Shown: positions 10,531 through 18,221 of the stretch, piece after piece | How positions within the stretch are numbered: the stretch's first letter is position 1 | How the letters are laid out: every line of letters starts with the position of its first letter | Source: Limnothrix sp. CACIAM 69d | GTDB taxonomy: Bacteria; Cyanobacteriota; Cyanobacteriia; CACIAM-69d | DNA length: 64,000 nucleotides | Reading direction: 5' to 3' | Assembly (NCBI GenBank): GCA_001913845.2 | Contig: MKGP02000097.1 | Location: 1-64,000 of the forward strand | The notes under the pieces: generated by a model | Databases searched by the model: none | What the model saw: the letters and a program-made list of their open reading frames with translations, nothing else | Told to the model about the DNA's origin: nothing | Made by a program: the position numbers and the translations under genes

Positions 10531-10780
10531 GTTTGCCTGAGGGAATATCTGAAACGCAAAAAAGCTAACGATATCAGCCGGTTGTCATTAGATTTTGTCA
10601 CTAGATCAACAGATCGACTCAATAGACCCCGTTAGCCGTGTCTCTATCCTACCCAGGTGATTTGACTGATGACCAATGGCAACTCCGGGAAGCCCTGTTG
10701 CCCATCACATCAAGGCAAGTGGATGACCCCGCATAGCGGTGTATCACTACTTCGCCGTTTGGTGACGATGGCACTTTACC
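10531..10780 (+). pseudogene. IS5-like transposase 5' remnant (left border of cyanobactin island)
   Basis: From GTG 10638 the DNA reads VSLSYPGDLTDDQWQLREALLP, the start of an IS5-family (DUF4096-type) transposase, and stops after 32 residues (TAG 10734-10736). Right after, VYHYFAVW (about 10739-10762), a motif normally about 60 residues further on, appears and is again broken by TGA. The gene is therefore internally deleted and dead. The upstream part (10531-10637, including AAAAAAGCTAAC and TTGTCAtTAG) resembles 18005-18115 on the other side of the island. Confidence 0.75.
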
Positions 10781-10891
10781 ATCCACCTCAAAACAGGTCA
10801 AAACCCTTTTTCTGAGTGCCAAGGCGCTTGGTTCGCCTCAATGAATTGACGGGCAACCCTCGTCACTTCAGGACATTCCGATACCTGGCAC
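10781..10891. repeat. 111-bp direct repeat, copy 1 (3' end of Y1 transposase)
   Basis: Identical base for base to 11306-11416. On the minus strand it encodes the last 31 residues of the Y1 transposase (RCQVSECPEVTRVARQFIE...) plus 3' flank, but nothing upstream of that. It is a solo remnant fused directly to the dead IS5-like transposase. Confidence 0.95.
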
Positions 10892-10993
10892 TAGGTTGTT
10901 AGATCGCATTAGATCGCAAGGCTCCAAAACAGGCAACTGAATTATTTTTCTACTGCATTTGCCTGACCATTTTTGCTCTCTTTCACTGAGCTT

Positions 10994-11029
10994 GATTGCA
11001 TCAAAAATAAAGAAATTGTAGATGCAATC
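10994..11029. promoter_or_regulatory. 9-bp perfect inverted repeat upstream of the cyanobactin precursor
   Basis: GATTGCATC (10994-11002) and GATGCAATC (11021-11029) are separated by 18 A/T-rich bases and followed by CTTTTATACCC. It lies about 100 bp before the precursor start. It could be an operator or, with the short T-run, a weak terminator of upstream readthrough. A TTGACG at 11045-11050 is a possible -35 box but its -10 is poor. Confidence 0.4.
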
Positions 11030-11127
11030 TTTTATACCCTAGTCTTGACGATGCTGAATAAAGAGGGCTAGCTTCTCTGCAGTTCCTGATAGGAACAATG
11101 CCCCTCACTCAACTTGAGGCAAAGACC

Positions 11128-11289
11128 ATGAAGAAAGATCTGAAAGCGCTGATGCCGCAAACCGTGGCTCCCGTGCAGCGCGAAACTTCCGCGACTGTTT
11201 CTCGTGATGGGAATGCGATCACGCCCCATAAATACAGCCTGCAAGGGTTTGGGGTAATGATTCCTTTTGCGGGAGACGATGCGGAGTAA
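11128..11289 (+). CDS. Cyanobactin precursor peptide (AcyE/PirE/LimE type)
   Basis: 53-residue ribosomal precursor. The leader MKKDLKALMPQ..APVQRET matches the conserved cyanobactin leader pattern (M-x-K-K-N-L-x-P-Q-Q-x-A-P-V-x-R). The C-terminal tail is FAGDDAE, the recognition sequence I know from anacyclamide/piricyclamide-type precursors, directly after Pro46, the residue PatG-type macrocyclases need at P1. The core therefore ends ..GFGVMIP. Its N-border is not obvious and may lie between Pro33 and Gly40 (PHKYSLQ|GFGVMIP). No Cys lies in the core region, matching the absence of a heterocyclase. His34 and Tyr36 are candidate prenyl acceptors if inside the core. ATG 11128 is chosen over in-frame ATG 11098 because GAGG (11116-11119) precedes it by 8 nt and the leader then starts canonically. 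Confidence 0.9.
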   Translation: MKKDLKALMPQTVAPVQRETSATVSRDGNAITPHKYSLQGFGVMIPFAGDDAE

Positions 11290-11305
11290 CACGCCTCATT
11301 CTATC

Positions 11306-11416
11306 ATCCACCTCAAAACAGGTCAAAACCCTTTTTCTGAGTGCCAAGGCGCTTGGTTCGCCTCAATGAATTGACGGGCAACCCTCGTCACTTCAGGACA
11401 TTCCGATACCTGGCAC
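11306..11416. repeat. 111-bp direct repeat, copy 2
   Basis: Perfect copy of 10781-10891. Here it is the native 3' end of the Y1 transposase gene. The precursor gene lies in the 414 bp between the two copies. Confidence 0.95.
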
Positions 11417-12108
11417 CGGGTGGGGTCAGCCAGACGGTTGGGGTTGAGTCTTTCTCGACCCTCAACCTGGCTTTTTTCCCCACCTCCCCGACTGGATAAA
11501 CGAGCATCAGCCAGCAGGCGGCTACCCCAAGCATATTTCCTTGGCTCTTTAGACTTCGGCTTATATCGCTGACAAAAACCCTTGTATTTCTTGGCACATT
11601 CCTCCAAACTTCTGCCAAGTCGCAGAAAAGCTGGATGCCACTGGGTTAATCCATTATCAGTCAAGCGTTCGTAGCTGCCGTAGTTACCGAATTCATAGAA
11701 GAAGGTAGAACGCATTTTTGCCGCTTTTGGATTGCCGTGAATGTAACGCAGGGTATTTAAAGTTCTGTCTCGGTCGGTCGCCGGAAACCCATCGCAGAAA
11801 TACCGCTTTTCCCAAAAATGCCCCGTTCTTCCGAGCATCCGATTAAAACACATCGCCGTGTACCAATTGAGGAAGTGCATAATTTTCGGCAAATCTTCGG
11901 GTTCAGTGGGTTCCAGCAGGTAATGAACGTGGTTCGACATAATGCACAGCCCGTACAGCTTGAACCCGAACTTATCCAATGCCTTGCGAATGGCATAAAG
12001 AAACACCTCCCGACATTCTCGCCGCGATAGTTTAAACTCCCGATTGTTGCAGCGGGTTGTGATGTGATAAGCGTATCCCTGCTTGAAAATTCTCGGTTTT
12101 CTGGGCAT
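11323..12108 (-). CDS. Y1/HUH transposase inserted in the cyanobactin operon
   Basis: Single-strand transposase of the Y1 (IS200/RAYT-related) superfamily. Motifs: YHITTRCNNREF near the N-terminus, the HUH pair in MSNHVHYLLEP, WEKRYF and the catalytic Tyr in RYIHGNPKAAKM. A long basic C-terminal region (about 170-260) ends in the segment that is also duplicated at 10781. About 261 residues, apparently intact. The start is taken at M-PRKPRIF (12108); an in-frame ATG at 12120 adds four residues. It is read against the cyanobactin genes and sits between the precursor and the prenyltransferase, so it may uncouple their transcription. It is unrelated in detail to the smaller RAYT at 1300. Confidence 0.9.
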   Translation of the reverse strand: MPRKPRIFKQGYAYHITTRCNNREFKLSRRECREVFLYAIRKALDKFGFKLYGLCIMSNHVHYLLEPTEPEDLPKIMHFLNWYTAMCFNRMLGRTGHFWEKRYFCDGFPATDRDRTLNTLRYIHGNPKAAKMRSTFFYEFGNYGSYERLTDNGLTQWHPAFLRLGRSLEECAKKYKGFCQRYKPKSKEPRKYAWGSRLLADARLSSRGGGEKSQVEGRERLNPNRLADPTRCQVSECPEVTRVARQFIEANQAPWHSEKGF

Positions 12109-12162
12109 CGCTTTGTGCAAATTGTGAATGAGTGACTCATCAAAAAACGAAAGAGCAGCAAA

Positions 12163-13047
12163 GTGTTTAAGTCAACGATCGCACCAGAAGAAAAATTAAG
12201 ATATATTGGCAACCACAAACAAGCCTTTGATATCGAACCGCTCTATCCCCTCGCATTATTTGAAGAGTTTGTTGCCACGACAGGGGACTGTATAATCGAA
12301 TGTTCGGGCAAAATCAAACAAGACCAGCTTTACCCAGCACGAATCGATCTCCAGTTCTCCGACAAACACCATTTCCACAATATTCACACCTCTATTGACT
12401 TCCTAAAACGCGCTGCATCCAGAACCGATGTCAATCTCAATCTCGACATTCTTGCCACCTTTTTGGCAGGCAACTTTGACTACAGCAAAGTTCAAAATAT
12501 CCTCGCGGGCATCGATCTGCGTCAAAATCTTGGCGAATCCAAACTCAAACTCTTTATCCGCATTGGTGACTATCCCGCAAAAATGGCTGTGGCCAAGCAT
12601 CTCTGCAACATTACTCCAGAGTCCGAAGCCATGCTGCGATCGGATACTTTACACATCGGCTTTGACTTTTATTTAGATGGTCGTAGTGCGATCGAACTCT
12701 ATCCTGAATTAAAAAAAGATGAATTTAATCATCCTTTCATCTACAACCAGTTAAAAACAATACTGTCTCCTGAAGCTCTCAAGCCCTTGCCTCTTTGCAA
12801 TTTGTTTGGAATTGGTTTGAGTCCTGCCAATGAAGCCAATGTTCTCTACTACCATCTAGAAAATATTGAAGATTTTTTATCCTACTTTCCCATCAACGAC
12901 ACGGCTCGTCGAGTTCACGATTTTTATCTCCAACAAGAGGGTTCTAGAAGAATGTGGGTTGCCCTTTCAGAATCAGAGATGAAAGCGGGGAGAATTAACA
13001 ACGTGAATCTGTATTACAGCAAAGCTTTTACGAGCCAAAATCCCTAA
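12163..13047 (+). CDS. Cyanobactin prenyltransferase, PatF/LynF/TruF family
   Basis: ABBA-barrel peptide prenyltransferase family that adds dimethylallyl or geranyl groups to cyanobactin side chains or termini (PatF itself is inactive). Family hallmarks seen: N-terminal RYIGNHKQAFDIEPLYPLALFEEFV, AGIDLRQNLGESKLKLFIRI, HIGFDFYLDGRSAIELYPE, NVLYYHLEN, NDTARRVHDFY and the C-terminal NLYYSKAF. 294 residues, the normal length (about 300). The start is GTG 12163; the ribosome site is poor. The stop lies 13 nt before the PatA-like gene, so F and A are probably co-transcribed. Members differ in acceptor: Tyr, Trp, Ser/Thr, Arg, or His as reported for LimF from Limnothrix. Acceptor and donor here cannot be read from sequence by eye; LimF or a close relative is possible. 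Confidence 0.92.
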   Translation: MFKSTIAPEEKLRYIGNHKQAFDIEPLYPLALFEEFVATTGDCIIECSGKIKQDQLYPARIDLQFSDKHHFHNIHTSIDFLKRAASRTDVNLNLDILATFLAGNFDYSKVQNILAGIDLRQNLGESKLKLFIRIGDYPAKMAVAKHLCNITPESEAMLRSDTLHIGFDFYLDGRSAIELYPELKKDEFNHPFIYNQLKTILSPEALKPLPLCNLFGIGLSPANEANVLYYHLENIEDFLSYFPINDTARRVHDFYLQQEGSRRMWVALSESEMKAGRINNVNLYYSKAFTSQNP

Positions 13048-13060
13048 TCTCACTGAAGTT

Positions 13061-15043
13061 ATGAGTCAGAGTTTGGCGAAAGAATTAATTCCTGGTCTTC
13101 TGAGCTTACAAACCCGCACCCAAGGCTCTTCCGATATTCGTGTCGCCGTCCTCGATGGCATTGTCGATACCGACCATCCCTGCTTTGCTGGTGCCACCCT
13201 CAGCCGCCTCCCCACCCTCGCCCTGGGCAAAGCCACCACCGGGGCCATGTCCACCCACGGCACCCACATTGCCAGCCTGATTTTCGGGCAGCCCAACACC
13301 GAAGTTCCCGGACTCGCCCCCCACTGTCGCGGCATCCTCGCCCCCGTCTTCTCCGACGACAACCGCAAACTCTCCCAACTGGATCTCGCCCGCGCCATAG
13401 AACAAGCCGCCGAAGCCGGAGCGCACATCATCAACATCAGCGGTGGTGCACTCACCGATATTGGCGAAGCAGAAGACTGGCTCGATCGCGCCGTGCAAAC
13501 CTGCAAAGAACGCAACATCCTCATCGTTGCCGCCGCCGGAAACGATGGTTGCGACTGCCTGAATGTCCCCGCCGCCCTACCCGCCGTCCTCGCGGTTGGT
13601 GCAATGGATGCCAGAGGTCATCCCCTAGATTTCAGCAACTGGGGAGAAACCTACCAAAGCCAAGGCATTCTCGCCCCCGGTGAGAACATCCCCGGCGCTA
13701 GTCCCGGTGGTGGCATCATTCGGCTCAGTGGCACTAGCTTTGCCGCTCCCATTATCTCGGGTGTGGCTGCCCTGCTGCTGAGCCTTCAGGTGCAACGGGG
13801 CGACGACCCTAACCCCCAAGCGGTGCGGGATGCCATCCTCGCAACCGCTCTGCCTTGTCCCCTTGCCGACACCGAACACGATCGCAAATGTTTGGTCGGT
13901 GTTCTGAATATTCCTGGGGCTGTTCAAAAGTTAACCGGAGAAAAATTAATAGGAGTCAGTATGTCAGACAACCAAGATCAAAGCTTAGAAACCGCACTGA
14001 TAGAAGCCTCCGGTTGCAGTTGCGGCGGTTCCTCCCCACCCGTGGAAGAAGCAGAAGAAATTGTTTCTCCCCCACAGGAGCGCCAACCCGCCCTGGTAAC
14101 GGTCAGTGCGATCGAAACCCCTGTTAACGCCATTACTTCATCAGGAACCCCTATGCCCGAAACCACCAGCGCCCCCATCACCCCCAGCCAAGCTGCTGAA
14201 CCCGCTAATGGCATGGTTTACGCGATCGGTACTCTCGGTTACGACTTCGGCAGCGAAGCCCGCCGCGACACCTTCAAACAACTCATGCCACCCTACGCCA
14301 TTGAAGGAACGCAGATTCCCGCCAACCCCTACGATGCGCGGCAAATGGTCGATTACTTAGGGGAAAACCTATCAGAAACCAAATCGCTGATTTGGACGCT
14401 GAACCTGGAATTGACCCCGATTTATGCAATTGAGCCTACGGGTTCCTTCTCCCGTGAAGTCTATGCTGTCCTCCAAGGCCTCTTGGCAGGTCAGGTCGAA
14501 GCTGAAGACAGCCCAGACTACATTGAGCGGGTCAGCATTCCCGGCCTGATTACGGGTCGCACCGTGCGTCTGTTCTCTGGTCAAGTCGTCCCCGTCATCG
14601 AACCCCAAAGCCCACGTGGGATGTACGGCTGGCACGTCAACACCCTGGTAGATACCGCCCTAGAAGCCGTGGGTACCGAACAGGGCGGCGATGAAAGCCA
14701 AATGCGCCGCACGCTCAGCAGCTTCCTGAATCGGATTTATTACGATCTCCGCAACTTGGGCCAAACCTCCCAAGACCGCGCTCTCAACTTCGCTGCCACC
14801 AATGCGTTCCAAGCCGCCCAAACCTTCTCGGAAGCCGTTGGCGCGGGGATGGAACTGGACAGCATCAATGTGTCCAAGAGTCCCTTCTGTCGGATGGACA
14901 GCGATTGTTGGGACGTGCAACTGAAGTTCTTTGATCCGGAAAACAGCCGCCGCGCCAAGAAGGTCTTCCGTTTTACGATTGATGTGAGCGACCTCATTCC
15001 TGTCACCCTGGGCGAGGTGCGTTCCTGGTCGTCGCCTTACTAA
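13061..15043 (+). CDS. PatA-like cyanobactin leader protease (S8 subtilisin + cyanobactin DUF)
   Basis: Expected to cut the precursor at the N-side of the core. Subtilisin domain in residues about 1-285 with catalytic Asp32 (AVLDGIVD), His66 (STHGTHIASLIFGQ) and Ser226 (GTSFAAPIISG); the oxyanion Asn is in AAGNDGCDC. The Asp-to-His distance is short (34 residues), as in PatA, without the macrocyclase insertion. A Thr/Pro/Glu-rich linker with CSCGG (about 310-390) leads to the conserved C-terminal domain (about 395-660: YAIGTLGYDFGSEARRDTF, SLIWTLNLELTPIYAI, SPRGMYGW, FLNRIYYDLRNLGQ) shared by PatA and PatG and still without known function. 13 nt after the prenyltransferase gene, so translationally close. 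Call is firm for the family; PatA versus PatG role rests on the missing insertion. Confidence 0.93.
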   Translation: MSQSLAKELIPGLLSLQTRTQGSSDIRVAVLDGIVDTDHPCFAGATLSRLPTLALGKATTGAMSTHGTHIASLIFGQPNTEVPGLAPHCRGILAPVFSDDNRKLSQLDLARAIEQAAEAGAHIINISGGALTDIGEAEDWLDRAVQTCKERNILIVAAAGNDGCDCLNVPAALPAVLAVGAMDARGHPLDFSNWGETYQSQGILAPGENIPGASPGGGIIRLSGTSFAAPIISGVAALLLSLQVQRGDDPNPQAVRDAILATALPCPLADTEHDRKCLVGVLNIPGAVQKLTGEKLIGVSMSDNQDQSLETALIEASGCSCGGSSPPVEEAEEIVSPPQERQPALVTVSAIETPVNAITSSGTPMPETTSAPITPSQAAEPANGMVYAIGTLGYDFGSEARRDTFKQLMPPYAIEGTQIPANPYDARQMVDYLGENLSETKSLIWTLNLELTPIYAIEPTGSFSREVYAVLQGLLAGQVEAEDSPDYIERVSIPGLITGRTVRLFSGQVVPVIEPQSPRGMYGWHVNTLVDTALEAVGTEQGGDESQMRRTLSSFLNRIYYDLRNLGQTSQDRALNFAATNAFQAAQTFSEAVGAGMELDSINVSKSPFCRMDSDCWDVQLKFFDPENSRRAKKVFRFTIDVSDLIPVTLGEVRSWSSPY

Positions 15044-15154
15044 GGGCAACCGCGCAGCCACAAAAAACATCAAGAACTAGAGGCGAGGAGTGAAGAGAGT
15101 GCCTGCCCATCTCATTTCTCGCCACGTCCCATCACAATCATTCTGGCAACTCCG

Positions 15155-15361
15155 ATGGCACTTCCTAAACAATCTCCCCCAGTCAAACGCCCTCATTTCG
15201 TCCACATCCATGACTGTGTGGATGTCCTTCATGGTGGTGGTGAAGACCTGTTGAGCATTCGCATGGACATCATGCACGGCGCTAATTACAACGATCCGGC
15301 TCAGTTTCAATATCCGGCCTATGGCTACTTGAAAATGTCAGGACAAGGGCGTTCTTACTAG
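15155..15361 (+). CDS. PatB/AcyB-like cyanobactin small protein
   Basis: 68 residues. The motif RPHFVHIHDCVDVLHGG followed by DLLSIRMDI, GANYNDPAQFQYP and YGYLKM matches what I recall of the PatB/AcyB/McaB family, small proteins always found in cyanobactin clusters but dispensable or of unknown role in heterologous production. No signal peptide or membrane helix. It lies 111 bp after the PatA-like gene and 64 bp before the PatC-like gene. ATG 15155 has no clear ribosome site; no better in-frame ATG is visible upstream. Confidence 0.8.
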   Translation: MALPKQSPPVKRPHFVHIHDCVDVLHGGGEDLLSIRMDIMHGANYNDPAQFQYPAYGYLKMSGQGRSY

Positions 15362-15425
15362 ATCAAGTCGTCTAGATATGCGACAAACTCGCCACAGCAA
15401 TCGGTGATCTTCGGGAGACAACACC

Positions 15426-15641
15426 ATGGCAAACGATAAAAAATCAAAAAAATCAGCCGAGCAAGTGGCCGAAACAGAGTCGGCTGAAACCAACGATCAA
15501 TCCTCAGAACCCAAAACCAAGAAGGAACCACAACCCTTGACAACCGGCTTGGAGGATTACGGTCGTTGGCGCACGTTTTACCAAGGCTACCAGCGCCCAA
15601 AGAACGAAAAACCGTTTCGGCGCGGCCGAATCTGGTGCTAA
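15426..15641 (+). CDS. PatC/TruC-like cyanobactin small protein
   Basis: 71 residues. A Lys/Ser/Glu-rich, probably disordered N-terminal half is followed by PLTTGLEDYGRWRTFYQGY and the terminal FRRGRIWC. This pattern and its position between B and G suggest the PatC/TenC/TruC family of unknown function. GGGAGA lies about 10 nt before ATG 15426. The identification depends on context and remembered family features, so it is less sure than the proteases. Confidence 0.7.
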   Translation: MANDKKSKKSAEQVAETESAETNDQSSEPKTKKEPQPLTTGLEDYGRWRTFYQGYQRPKNEKPFRRGRIWC

Positions 15642-15825
15642 CCATTTGCGACTAAGCATGGGTTGCTAAGTCGAATCAAAGCCACTGCCGCCAGGTAGCC
15701 CACAAGCTTCAGGATCAACTCCCAATAGTTGCAGTTGGACAGCAAGCAATGCGATTGACTTCCCACGGGTTAATCGCAATTGATGCGTGCGTAATTGATG
15801 CATTGTTCATAAAGTTCTTAAAATT

Positions 15826-17958
15826 ATGCCGAATCTAGCCGATATTTCTGGAATGTCTGCCTTGCGATCGCACACCCTTGGCGATCCGCGCATCAAAATT
15901 GCTGTGCTTGATGGGAAGGTTGATCTTGATCGGGCTTGCTTTCAAGGGGGAAATCTAACTCGAATTGATCCCTACTGGATCGAATCATTTGAAATCGACC
16001 CAGCTGATATTCAAGCCTTTGTTGAAATTGACCTCCATGCCAAAGCAGCAGGTCTCAGTGAGGAGGAATCGGGGAAGCTAATGGAAGCGGCTATCCCCGA
16101 TGAAAACATTCGCCGAAGTATTCACCTACAGAGTCATGCTGCCCACATCATCAGCACCATTTGCGGTCAACCCGGCTCTCCTGTCGAAGGTATTGCTCCT
16201 AGGGCAACAGTAATTAATATTCCTATTGCGGTTAATGGGGAAGATTTCATCAATCCTTTGAATCTATCTCGAGCTATTAGCACCGCGATCGAGCAGGACG
16301 TTAACATTATTCACTGTGCCGCTTGCCATCCTACCCAAAGTGGTATCGCCCACGAATTTATTGAAAAAGCTATTAAACAAGCGCAGGAAAATAATATTTT
16401 AGTCATTGCCCCAGGCGGTAACGATAAGGGTGAATGTTGGTGTATTCCGGCCGTCCTCGATCATGTGCTGACGGTCGGTGCGATGAAAGATACGGGCGAA
16501 CCATTTAAGTTCAGTAACTTTGGCGGTAAATACGCCAGCCAAGGCATTTTAGCCCCTGGTGAAAATGTTCTTGGTGCGCTACCGGGTACCGATATCCCCA
16601 TCCGCCAAAAAGGTACGAGCTGTGCTGCCCCGATCATTACAGGAACAGCCGCCCTCCTGATGAGTTTGCAATTGGAACAGGGTTTGGCTCCCGATGCAGA
16701 AGCGGTACGGGCAGCCTTGCTCAATAGTGCTATTCCCTGCGACCCGGAAACGACGGAAGAGCCAGAACGGTGCTTACTGGGCAGAATTAACATTGCCGGA
16801 GCCTATGAGTTAATTATGGGCACACCGTTGCAATACCAGCAGACGAAGGCTGAGGTGAGCAATCGCCCTGTGGATGATGACTCAGGGGTGGAAATTATTG
16901 CTCCGGAAACTGGTATTGACCAAGGCTATTTAGGCGTTAATAACCAATCTCATCTAACCGTAGTTTCTGAACCTAGTCCTAAAACTGCGATCGCTTCGCC
17001 GGAGGAGCAATTAGTGGTCGCTGCGGCTGTTCAATCCGCAGCGACCACAGCCAATGCAACAACGAATGTGATTTCGGCCACCCCGATCACGCCTTCTGCT
17101 GCCACCACTAGCCCTCGCTCCAACTTGGCTTACACCCTTGGGACGATTGGATATGATTTTGGCACTGAGGCCCGGCGTGACACCTTTAAACAATTTATGC
17201 CGGCCGCTACGGTAGGGAATGTCCAGATTCCTGCCAATCCCTATGATGCCCGTCAAATGGTGGACTATCTGGACGAAAATCTCTTTGAAGCAAAATCACT
17301 GATTTGGACACTTAATCTAGAGCTAACTCCGGTGTATGCCATTCAACCCGTAGGAGCTTTTGGGGCAGAGATCTATGAGATTTTGACCTACTTGCTGGGT
17401 GGGCAAGTATTAGCGGAGGATGATGATAACTATATCGAGCGAGTCAGTATACCGGGAATTGTGATCAACGAAACGGTGCGCCTCTTTTCTGGTCAGGAAG
17501 TACCAATTTTGAAGGTTAATAGTCCGCGTGGAATGTATGGCTGGAAAGTCAATTCATTGGTGGAATCGGCCTTGCAGACGGTTAGTGCCAATCAAGCAGT
17601 TGCTGATGAGAGTCGAATGCGACGATCACTGACTAGTTTTCTTAATCGGGTTTACTATGACCTGCGAAACTTGGGACAATTGGCGCGCGATCGGGCACTG
17701 AACTTTGCAGCAACAAATGCCTTCCAAGCTGTCCAGACTTTTTCAGAGGCTGTAGCCCAGGGAATGGAGTTAGCAGATATTGAAGTTGAGAAAAGTCCAT
17801 TCTGTCGCTATGGCAGCGAGTGCTGGGACGTAAAATTGAAGTTTTTTGACCCTGACAATGGACGGCGAGCCAAGCGGATTTTTCGATTCACGATTGATGT
17901 GAGTGATCGAATGCCAGTCACTCTTGGTAAGGTGCGATCGTGGGCTGTGTCTAAGTAG
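15826..17958 (+). CDS. PatG-like cyanobactin macrocyclase (S8 + cyanobactin DUF), no oxidase domain
   Basis: Expected to remove FAGDDAE and join the peptide ends. Subtilisin-type domain: catalytic Asp29 (AVLDGKVD), His104 and Ser265 (GTSCAAPIITG). Between Asp and His there are 75 residues instead of 34 in the PatA-like paralogue; this extra helical segment (about 48-97) corresponds to the capping helices that let PatG exclude water and macrocyclise. The usual HGTH box is HAAH here. A linker (about 330-430) leads to the conserved C-terminal domain (YTLGTIGYDFGTEARRDTF onward), closely similar to that of the PatA-like protein. The N-terminal FMN oxidase of PatG is absent, consistent with no azolines. 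The 184-bp gap upstream contains TTGACT (near 15750) and may hold a separate promoter. Start ATG 15826. Confidence 0.92.
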   Translation: MPNLADISGMSALRSHTLGDPRIKIAVLDGKVDLDRACFQGGNLTRIDPYWIESFEIDPADIQAFVEIDLHAKAAGLSEEESGKLMEAAIPDENIRRSIHLQSHAAHIISTICGQPGSPVEGIAPRATVINIPIAVNGEDFINPLNLSRAISTAIEQDVNIIHCAACHPTQSGIAHEFIEKAIKQAQENNILVIAPGGNDKGECWCIPAVLDHVLTVGAMKDTGEPFKFSNFGGKYASQGILAPGENVLGALPGTDIPIRQKGTSCAAPIITGTAALLMSLQLEQGLAPDAEAVRAALLNSAIPCDPETTEEPERCLLGRINIAGAYELIMGTPLQYQQTKAEVSNRPVDDDSGVEIIAPETGIDQGYLGVNNQSHLTVVSEPSPKTAIASPEEQLVVAAAVQSAATTANATTNVISATPITPSAATTSPRSNLAYTLGTIGYDFGTEARRDTFKQFMPAATVGNVQIPANPYDARQMVDYLDENLFEAKSLIWTLNLELTPVYAIQPVGAFGAEIYEILTYLLGGQVLAEDDDNYIERVSIPGIVINETVRLFSGQEVPILKVNSPRGMYGWKVNSLVESALQTVSANQAVADESRMRRSLTSFLNRVYYDLRNLGQLARDRALNFAATNAFQAVQTFSEAVAQGMELADIEVEKSPFCRYGSECWDVKLKFFDPDNGRRAKRIFRFTIDVSDRMPVTLGKVRSWAVSK

Positions 17959-18004
17959 TGGTCGCATCCAATGTAGCTAACCGGTGTTAGATCGCTGGGT
18001 TGAA

Positions 18005-18115
18005 GGTTAGAGAATGTTTGAAATGTTTGAGAAGTAAAAAAAGCTAACTTCGTTAGCTTGTCATTGATCAACTCAACAGACTCCATTAGTCATGTCTCTA
18101 ACCTACCCAGTCGCA
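18005..18115 (+). mobile_element. IS5-like left-end remnant, right border of cyanobactin island
   Basis: Carries the same elements in the same order and orientation as 10531-10660: an AATGTTTGAAA-like terminus, AAAAAAGCTAAC, TTGTCATT, GATCAAC, TCAACAGACTCC, then ATG TCT CTA ACC TAC CCA (MSLTYP), the transposase N-terminus. After six matching codons the similarity ends and a stop follows within 12 codons (18094-18132). Confidence 0.65.
18036..18059 (-). terminator. Rho-independent terminator downstream of pilC
   Basis: Read on the minus strand: an 8-bp perfect stem AAGCTAAC/GTTAGCTT, loop GAA, then a run of T (seven A on the plus strand, 18036-18042). It lies 160 bp beyond the pilC stop. The hairpin is built from the IS remnant, so the pil operon may use a terminator supplied by a mobile element. 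Confidence 0.7.
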
Positions 18116-18221
18116 AGAACCATCTGCTAGAAGAATTTGCCCGAAAGAAATCCGCCTGAAGTTTTGATGATCGATCGCTTTGCCTTGGAGTTTTGATGGT
18201 TAATAGCGTTGCCTTGCAGCA

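Follow-up and report, generated by a model that had tools for sequence, protein, structure and literature searches.

The DNA analysed here, referred to as the window, is a 64,000-nucleotide stretch of a contig of Limnothrix sp. CACIAM 69d (MKGP02000097.1), in which two direct copies of one short sequence, R1 and R2, flank the precursor gene of a piricyclamide/anacyclamide-type cyanobactin cluster. The features of the region are as follows.

10542 to 18128 (no strand): inserted cyanobactin cluster, its two flanks adjacent in relatives
10612 to 10779 (+): decayed IS4/IS5-like remnant with a DUF4096-like start (weak match), at the left island edge and adjoining R1
10780 to 10891 (-): R1, detached transposase 3' end (codons ~236-265 plus 18 nt), its left edge adjoining the IS5-like remnant
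11128 to 11289 (+): cyanobactin precursor E, TIGR04446 (PirE), ORF open from 11098, follower FAGDDAE
11305 to 11416 (-): R2, the 112-bp 3' end of the intact transposase gene, beginning 16 nt past the E stop codon
11323 to 12120 (-): Y1 (IS200-like, HUH) transposase ORF, 265 aa, PF01797, antisense to and convergent with E
12163 to 13047 (+): PatF/LynF-family prenyltransferase, TIGR04445
13061 to 15043 (+): PatA/PatG-family protease 1, TIGR03895
15155 to 15361 (+): PatB-family protein, TIGR04220
15426 to 15641 (+): PatC-family protein, TIGR04447
15826 to 17958 (+): PatA/PatG-family protease 2, TIGR03895
18066 to 18110 (+): 45 bp at the right island edge that match the left IS-like remnant (82%) in direct orientation

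A TIGR04446 precursor, PatA/PatG-family proteases and a PatF-like enzyme occur together here, as in anacyclamide/piricyclamide-type cyanobactin clusters. The ORF enclosed by the repeats had been proposed to be the precursor and is a genuine one, scoring 68.7 bits against the TIGR04446 PirE model (cut-off 35); comparison with relatives makes a start at 11128 more likely than one at 11098. In gene content the region agrees with the published piricyclamide cluster of Limnothrix sp. CACIAM 69d (PMC6256058). That publication shows a single precursor, places an IS200-like transposase between pirF and pirE, and draws a "repeat region" that the figure legend names R. The pir, acy and sph clusters share with the window a TIGR04446 precursor, a PatF-like prenyltransferase, two PatA/G proteases and the B and C proteins, and the Limnothrix and sph clusters also have the transposase between E and F. 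However, nowhere in the sections of these publications that were covered is R described as a transposase 3' end or as a common tail of precursor genes.

An exact-match scan of the window returned a 112-bp direct repeat of 100% identity (10780-10891 and 11305-11416, 525 bp from start to start), which is the sole direct repeat of at least 60 bp within the whole window, and R1 and R2 are its only two copies in the 4.57-Mb assembly of 100 contigs. Chance is ruled out as the source of this identity. The original prediction had placed identical flanking repeats at 10781-10891 and 11306-11416, a span one base short at the left but otherwise confirmed, and was also right to derive them from the 3' end of the Y1 transposase: R2 comprises the last ~30 codons of the 265-aa ORF, its stop codon and 18 nt beyond, and R1 is the same stretch without the remainder of the gene. 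Since the C-terminus encoded by R2 aligns with the C-terminus of transposases found outside cyanobactin clusters, it is the genuine transposase end rather than a foreign element entered by the ORF.

The transposase carries a Y1_Tnp domain with its HUH motif (PF01797, E 2.6e-17), the NHVH and YIHxNP region being kept in the alignment, and scores below the NCBIfam IS200/IS605 equivalog cut-off (NF033573, 21.9 bits against 55). REP-associated tyrosine transposases (RAYTs) are described as lying between REPs, high-copy palindromes in inverted orientation whose head is of the GTAG type (PMC2817692). The window resembles RAYTs and REP/BIME repeats in combining a Y1/HUH transposase with short repeats nearby, but it has two direct copies of coding sequence without such palindromes; RAYT membership was rejected because the score lies under the RAYT cut-off (NF047646, 56.3 bits against 80) and no inverted palindromic REP pair flanks the transposase in 11280-12240. 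The transposases linked to cyanobactin genes group in a single clade apart from the unlinked ones (support 1.0). In plasmid searches, only relatives of the transposase were matched, and the IS remnant had no match.

To place R1 and R2 in a wider context, we collected 76 loci around relatives of protease 1 and further precursor loci from whole genomes, searched them with an iterated DNA profile of R, and counted precursor ORFs by their leader/follower pattern (80 distinct ORFs in the collected cyanobactin loci). The profile gave 82 matches, 65 of them different, nearly all directly 3' of a cyanobactin precursor ORF. R, as a transposase 3' end of ~95-110 bp, follows 56 of the 80 precursor ORFs, mostly 26-42 nt past the stop codon, and the final R of an array is part of a full or decayed transposase gene ahead of F; 24 of the 80 in these loci have no detected R. 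Four precursors of locus L078 are without a detected R, though R occurs elsewhere in that locus. R-bearing precursors span several classes (FAGDDAE, FSGDDAE and SYDGDDE types), and the lineages that carry them include Arthrospira, Laspinema, Oscillatoria, Phormidium, Argonema, Okeania, Trichodesmium, Microcystis, Lyngbya and Nostocales. Among 388 cyanobacterial genomes scanned, R was present in 20, where strong matches adjoin precursors, degenerate or truncated precursors, or transposase 3' ends; some weak partial matches in the same scan are the ends of other transposases. Judged by these sequence comparisons, R commonly forms the tail of cyanobactin precursor genes rather than being a peculiarity confined to the window, which is a stronger and less expected point than the cassette idea drawn from the window itself. 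We found no description of a transposase-derived tail of precursors in the open-access papers covered, and its novelty is provisional.

In the arrays of L059, L067, L068 and G177, the repeat unit is the whole ~510-550-bp segment (5' region, leader, core, follower and R), and the core is the main variable part. L059 (Arthrospira) has six precursor+R units, and two adjacent precursor units at 16561-17583 are 98.8% identical with the same core, a pair that its sequence marks as a recent whole-unit duplication. Precursor number differs within one genus (four in G177, two in G288 and two in G362), and the copy number of pagE in Planktothrix is given as 1 to 12 among published strains (PMC9366434). 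Taken together, the array units, the Arthrospira pair and the counts in that genus and for pagE leave gain and loss of precursor units, with R belonging to the unit, well supported in general. For 25 of 37 R copies, the nearest sequence is a copy from their own array, most exceptions involving close relatives. Perfect identity of R1 and R2 had also been taken as the sign of a recent event; the identity stands, but recency is one reading among others, given that R copies tend to resemble those of their own array. Short internal blocks of the R copies in L068 and L067 (e.g. TTTCCGATACC / GGACGATACC / TTGTCCTAACC) vary as units and are common to two genera. The window itself holds one complete precursor unit and the bare R1. 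The arthrospiramide (art) cluster resembles the window in the transposase that separates artE from artF, but it holds six precursors in six units where the window has one complete unit plus bare R, and the R tail goes unmentioned in the part of its description covered here (PMC4663559).

Beyond R, some loci have an intact transposase gene, others a gene that has lost internal parts but preserves its two ends, and others R alone. Transposase genes with the middle deleted and both ends retained occur in L056, L068, L050 and L100, a pattern that would be as in nonautonomous elements or in genes whose ends overlap useful neighbouring sequence. This range of states, together with the single linked clade, is consistent with an old association: E and the convergent transposase 3' end would have been duplicated together while spare transposase sequence eroded. 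Homogenisation within arrays, or a role as the precursor's 3' untranslated region, may have spared R from this erosion. Many R copies end at CCTGGCAC; transposase homology extends further in L059, L067, L068, L056 and L100, so that this boundary is not universal, and a fixed cleavage point there was rejected.

No conserved or covarying fold was found in R (RNAalifold on 47 copies gave 3 pairs and -0.67 kcal/mol), and Rfam returned a chance match only, on which grounds a conserved hairpin of attC-, REP- or RNA-like kind was rejected; single R copies fold somewhat better than shuffles. An array of small genes with a similar element after each gene recalls integron gene cassettes, but R lacks the conserved single-strand fold of an attC-like site, and the enzyme encoded nearby belongs to the Y1 HUH transposases and not to the tyrosine recombinases.

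The 7.6-kb cluster is absent from all five sequenced family relatives, and in the same-genus genome G002, whose flanks are 95-97% identical, the matches to window positions 10541 and 18129 are 58 bp apart, leaving an empty site. As the cluster flanks are adjacent in the relatives, the segment is an insertion; its G+C is lower than that of its left surroundings. The match between its edges (10612-10656 against 18066-18110) scored 55, the best of 1000 shuffles reaching 29, and both IS-like edge sequences are decayed and present nowhere else in the genome. The direct orientation of these remnants at both edges suggests that the island was acquired by an IS-mediated route. A composite IS transposon would have two IS copies bounding the island and a target duplication; what was seen of such a layout is this pair of decayed, directly oriented matches. 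No precursor remnant was detectable left of R1, where GGTGACGATG reads as IS5-like code. A candidate follower (GDD) remnant in this stretch of IS5-like transposase code was rejected as not significant, since 193 of 4933 random 40-mers matched equally well.

We consider it probable, taking the whole account together, that the R tail is copied with a precursor unit of ~0.5 kb, that arrays change by unequal recombination, and that R1 is the tail of a lost upstream unit. The 3' end of a Y1 transposase gene lying antisense and convergent to the precursor would serve as the precursor's 3' tail in many cyanobacteria and would be duplicated together with the ~0.5-kb unit. Arrays, we infer, expand and contract mainly via ordinary homologous recombination, in which R copies and the remaining near-identical stretches of the unit pair unequally, and the core peptide would diversify while the arrays grow and shrink. 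The window would retain one complete unit, E with R2, joined to the intact transposase, and R1 would have been the tail of a second unit further upstream, which lost its gene beside the IS5-like remnant on the left margin of the acquired 7.6-kb cluster. Remains of a second precursor unit are the simplest and most likely account of R1, a step that we infer because no trace of the upstream gene persists to its left. Degenerate precursors that still have the gene end and R occur in L122, L123 and L130, and R1 would be one step further. The recombination geometry that the original prediction described is correct, in that exchange between R1 and R2 would remove or duplicate the 525-bp unit containing the precursor and leave the transposase ORF whole; gain and loss by this route fits the comparative evidence, its basis being relatives and not this species. 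The view of the precursor as a gain/loss cassette is likewise borne out among relatives, by their tandem precursor+R units, differing copy numbers, the Arthrospira pair and the pagE range, whereas for this species no polymorphism was seen and the five family relatives are without the cluster.

A possible though doubtful addition, compatible with the unit-copying account, is that R is kept as the 3' untranslated region of the precursor, where it would help to form the RNA 3' end, to stabilise the RNA or to insulate it from the convergent transposase, such that every viable duplicate must bear R. The near-constant distance of R from the stop codon speaks for such a role, as does its persistence both beside transposases with internal deletions and both ends kept and in L088, where no transposase was detected. 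Detached R also diverges between arrays about as attached R does (34/34/40% against 33/32/44% for the three codon positions), although its excess at third positions is weaker, in what is a weakly informative test of coding constraint in the detached copies. The missing covarying fold, the failure to find a terminator-like site in 10600-12300 and the 24 of 80 precursors without detected R weigh against it. For R1 in particular, we think it unlikely that the transposase end was copied there recently and on its own, by partial transposition or by rearrangement at the IS5-like remnant, and that R1 never formed part of a precursor unit. Such an origin would agree with the empty left side, the 100% identity with R2 and the directly adjoining IS-like sequence, but elsewhere strong R matches accompany precursors, precursor remnants or transposases.

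It is improbable, on the sequences compared, that R is an end on which the Y1 transposase acts and that this enzyme is what copies or excises precursor+R units. The single linked clade, the HUH and Tyr region conserved in intact copies, the homology that often stops at the boundary noted above, and derivatives that keep both gene ends around a deleted middle, like nonautonomous elements, would all suit this reading; nevertheless, R has no conserved fold, fragment lengths vary among lineages, R is not dispersed beyond the clusters, and the unit arrays resemble plain tandem duplications. Equally improbable is a reading of precursor genes as mobile cassettes, in which a Y1 transposase clade dedicated to cyanobactins would recognise R as its end and copy precursor+R units to build the arrays at the cluster; if true, it would constitute a peptide-diversifying system, somewhat integron-like but with an HUH enzyme. 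An assembly artefact as the source of the second R copy is very improbable. The assembly is a draft of 100 contigs, in which the repeat copy number might be collapsed, but R1 and R2 lie in a single 85.6-kb contig with flanks that differ on either side, the same arrangement recurs in independent genomes, some of them complete, and the published Limnothrix cluster draws a repeat region, possibly from the same assembly (PMC6256058).

How cyanobactin precursors are gained, lost and diversified is an open practical question in RiPP discovery. The transposase-derived tail on most precursors of the examined loci is a concrete block of homology through which arrays could expand and contract. It is also a sequence marker with which overlooked, degenerate or dead precursors may be found, and it makes it possible to test directly whether the Y1 transposase found with it belongs to the diversifying machinery or is a passenger.
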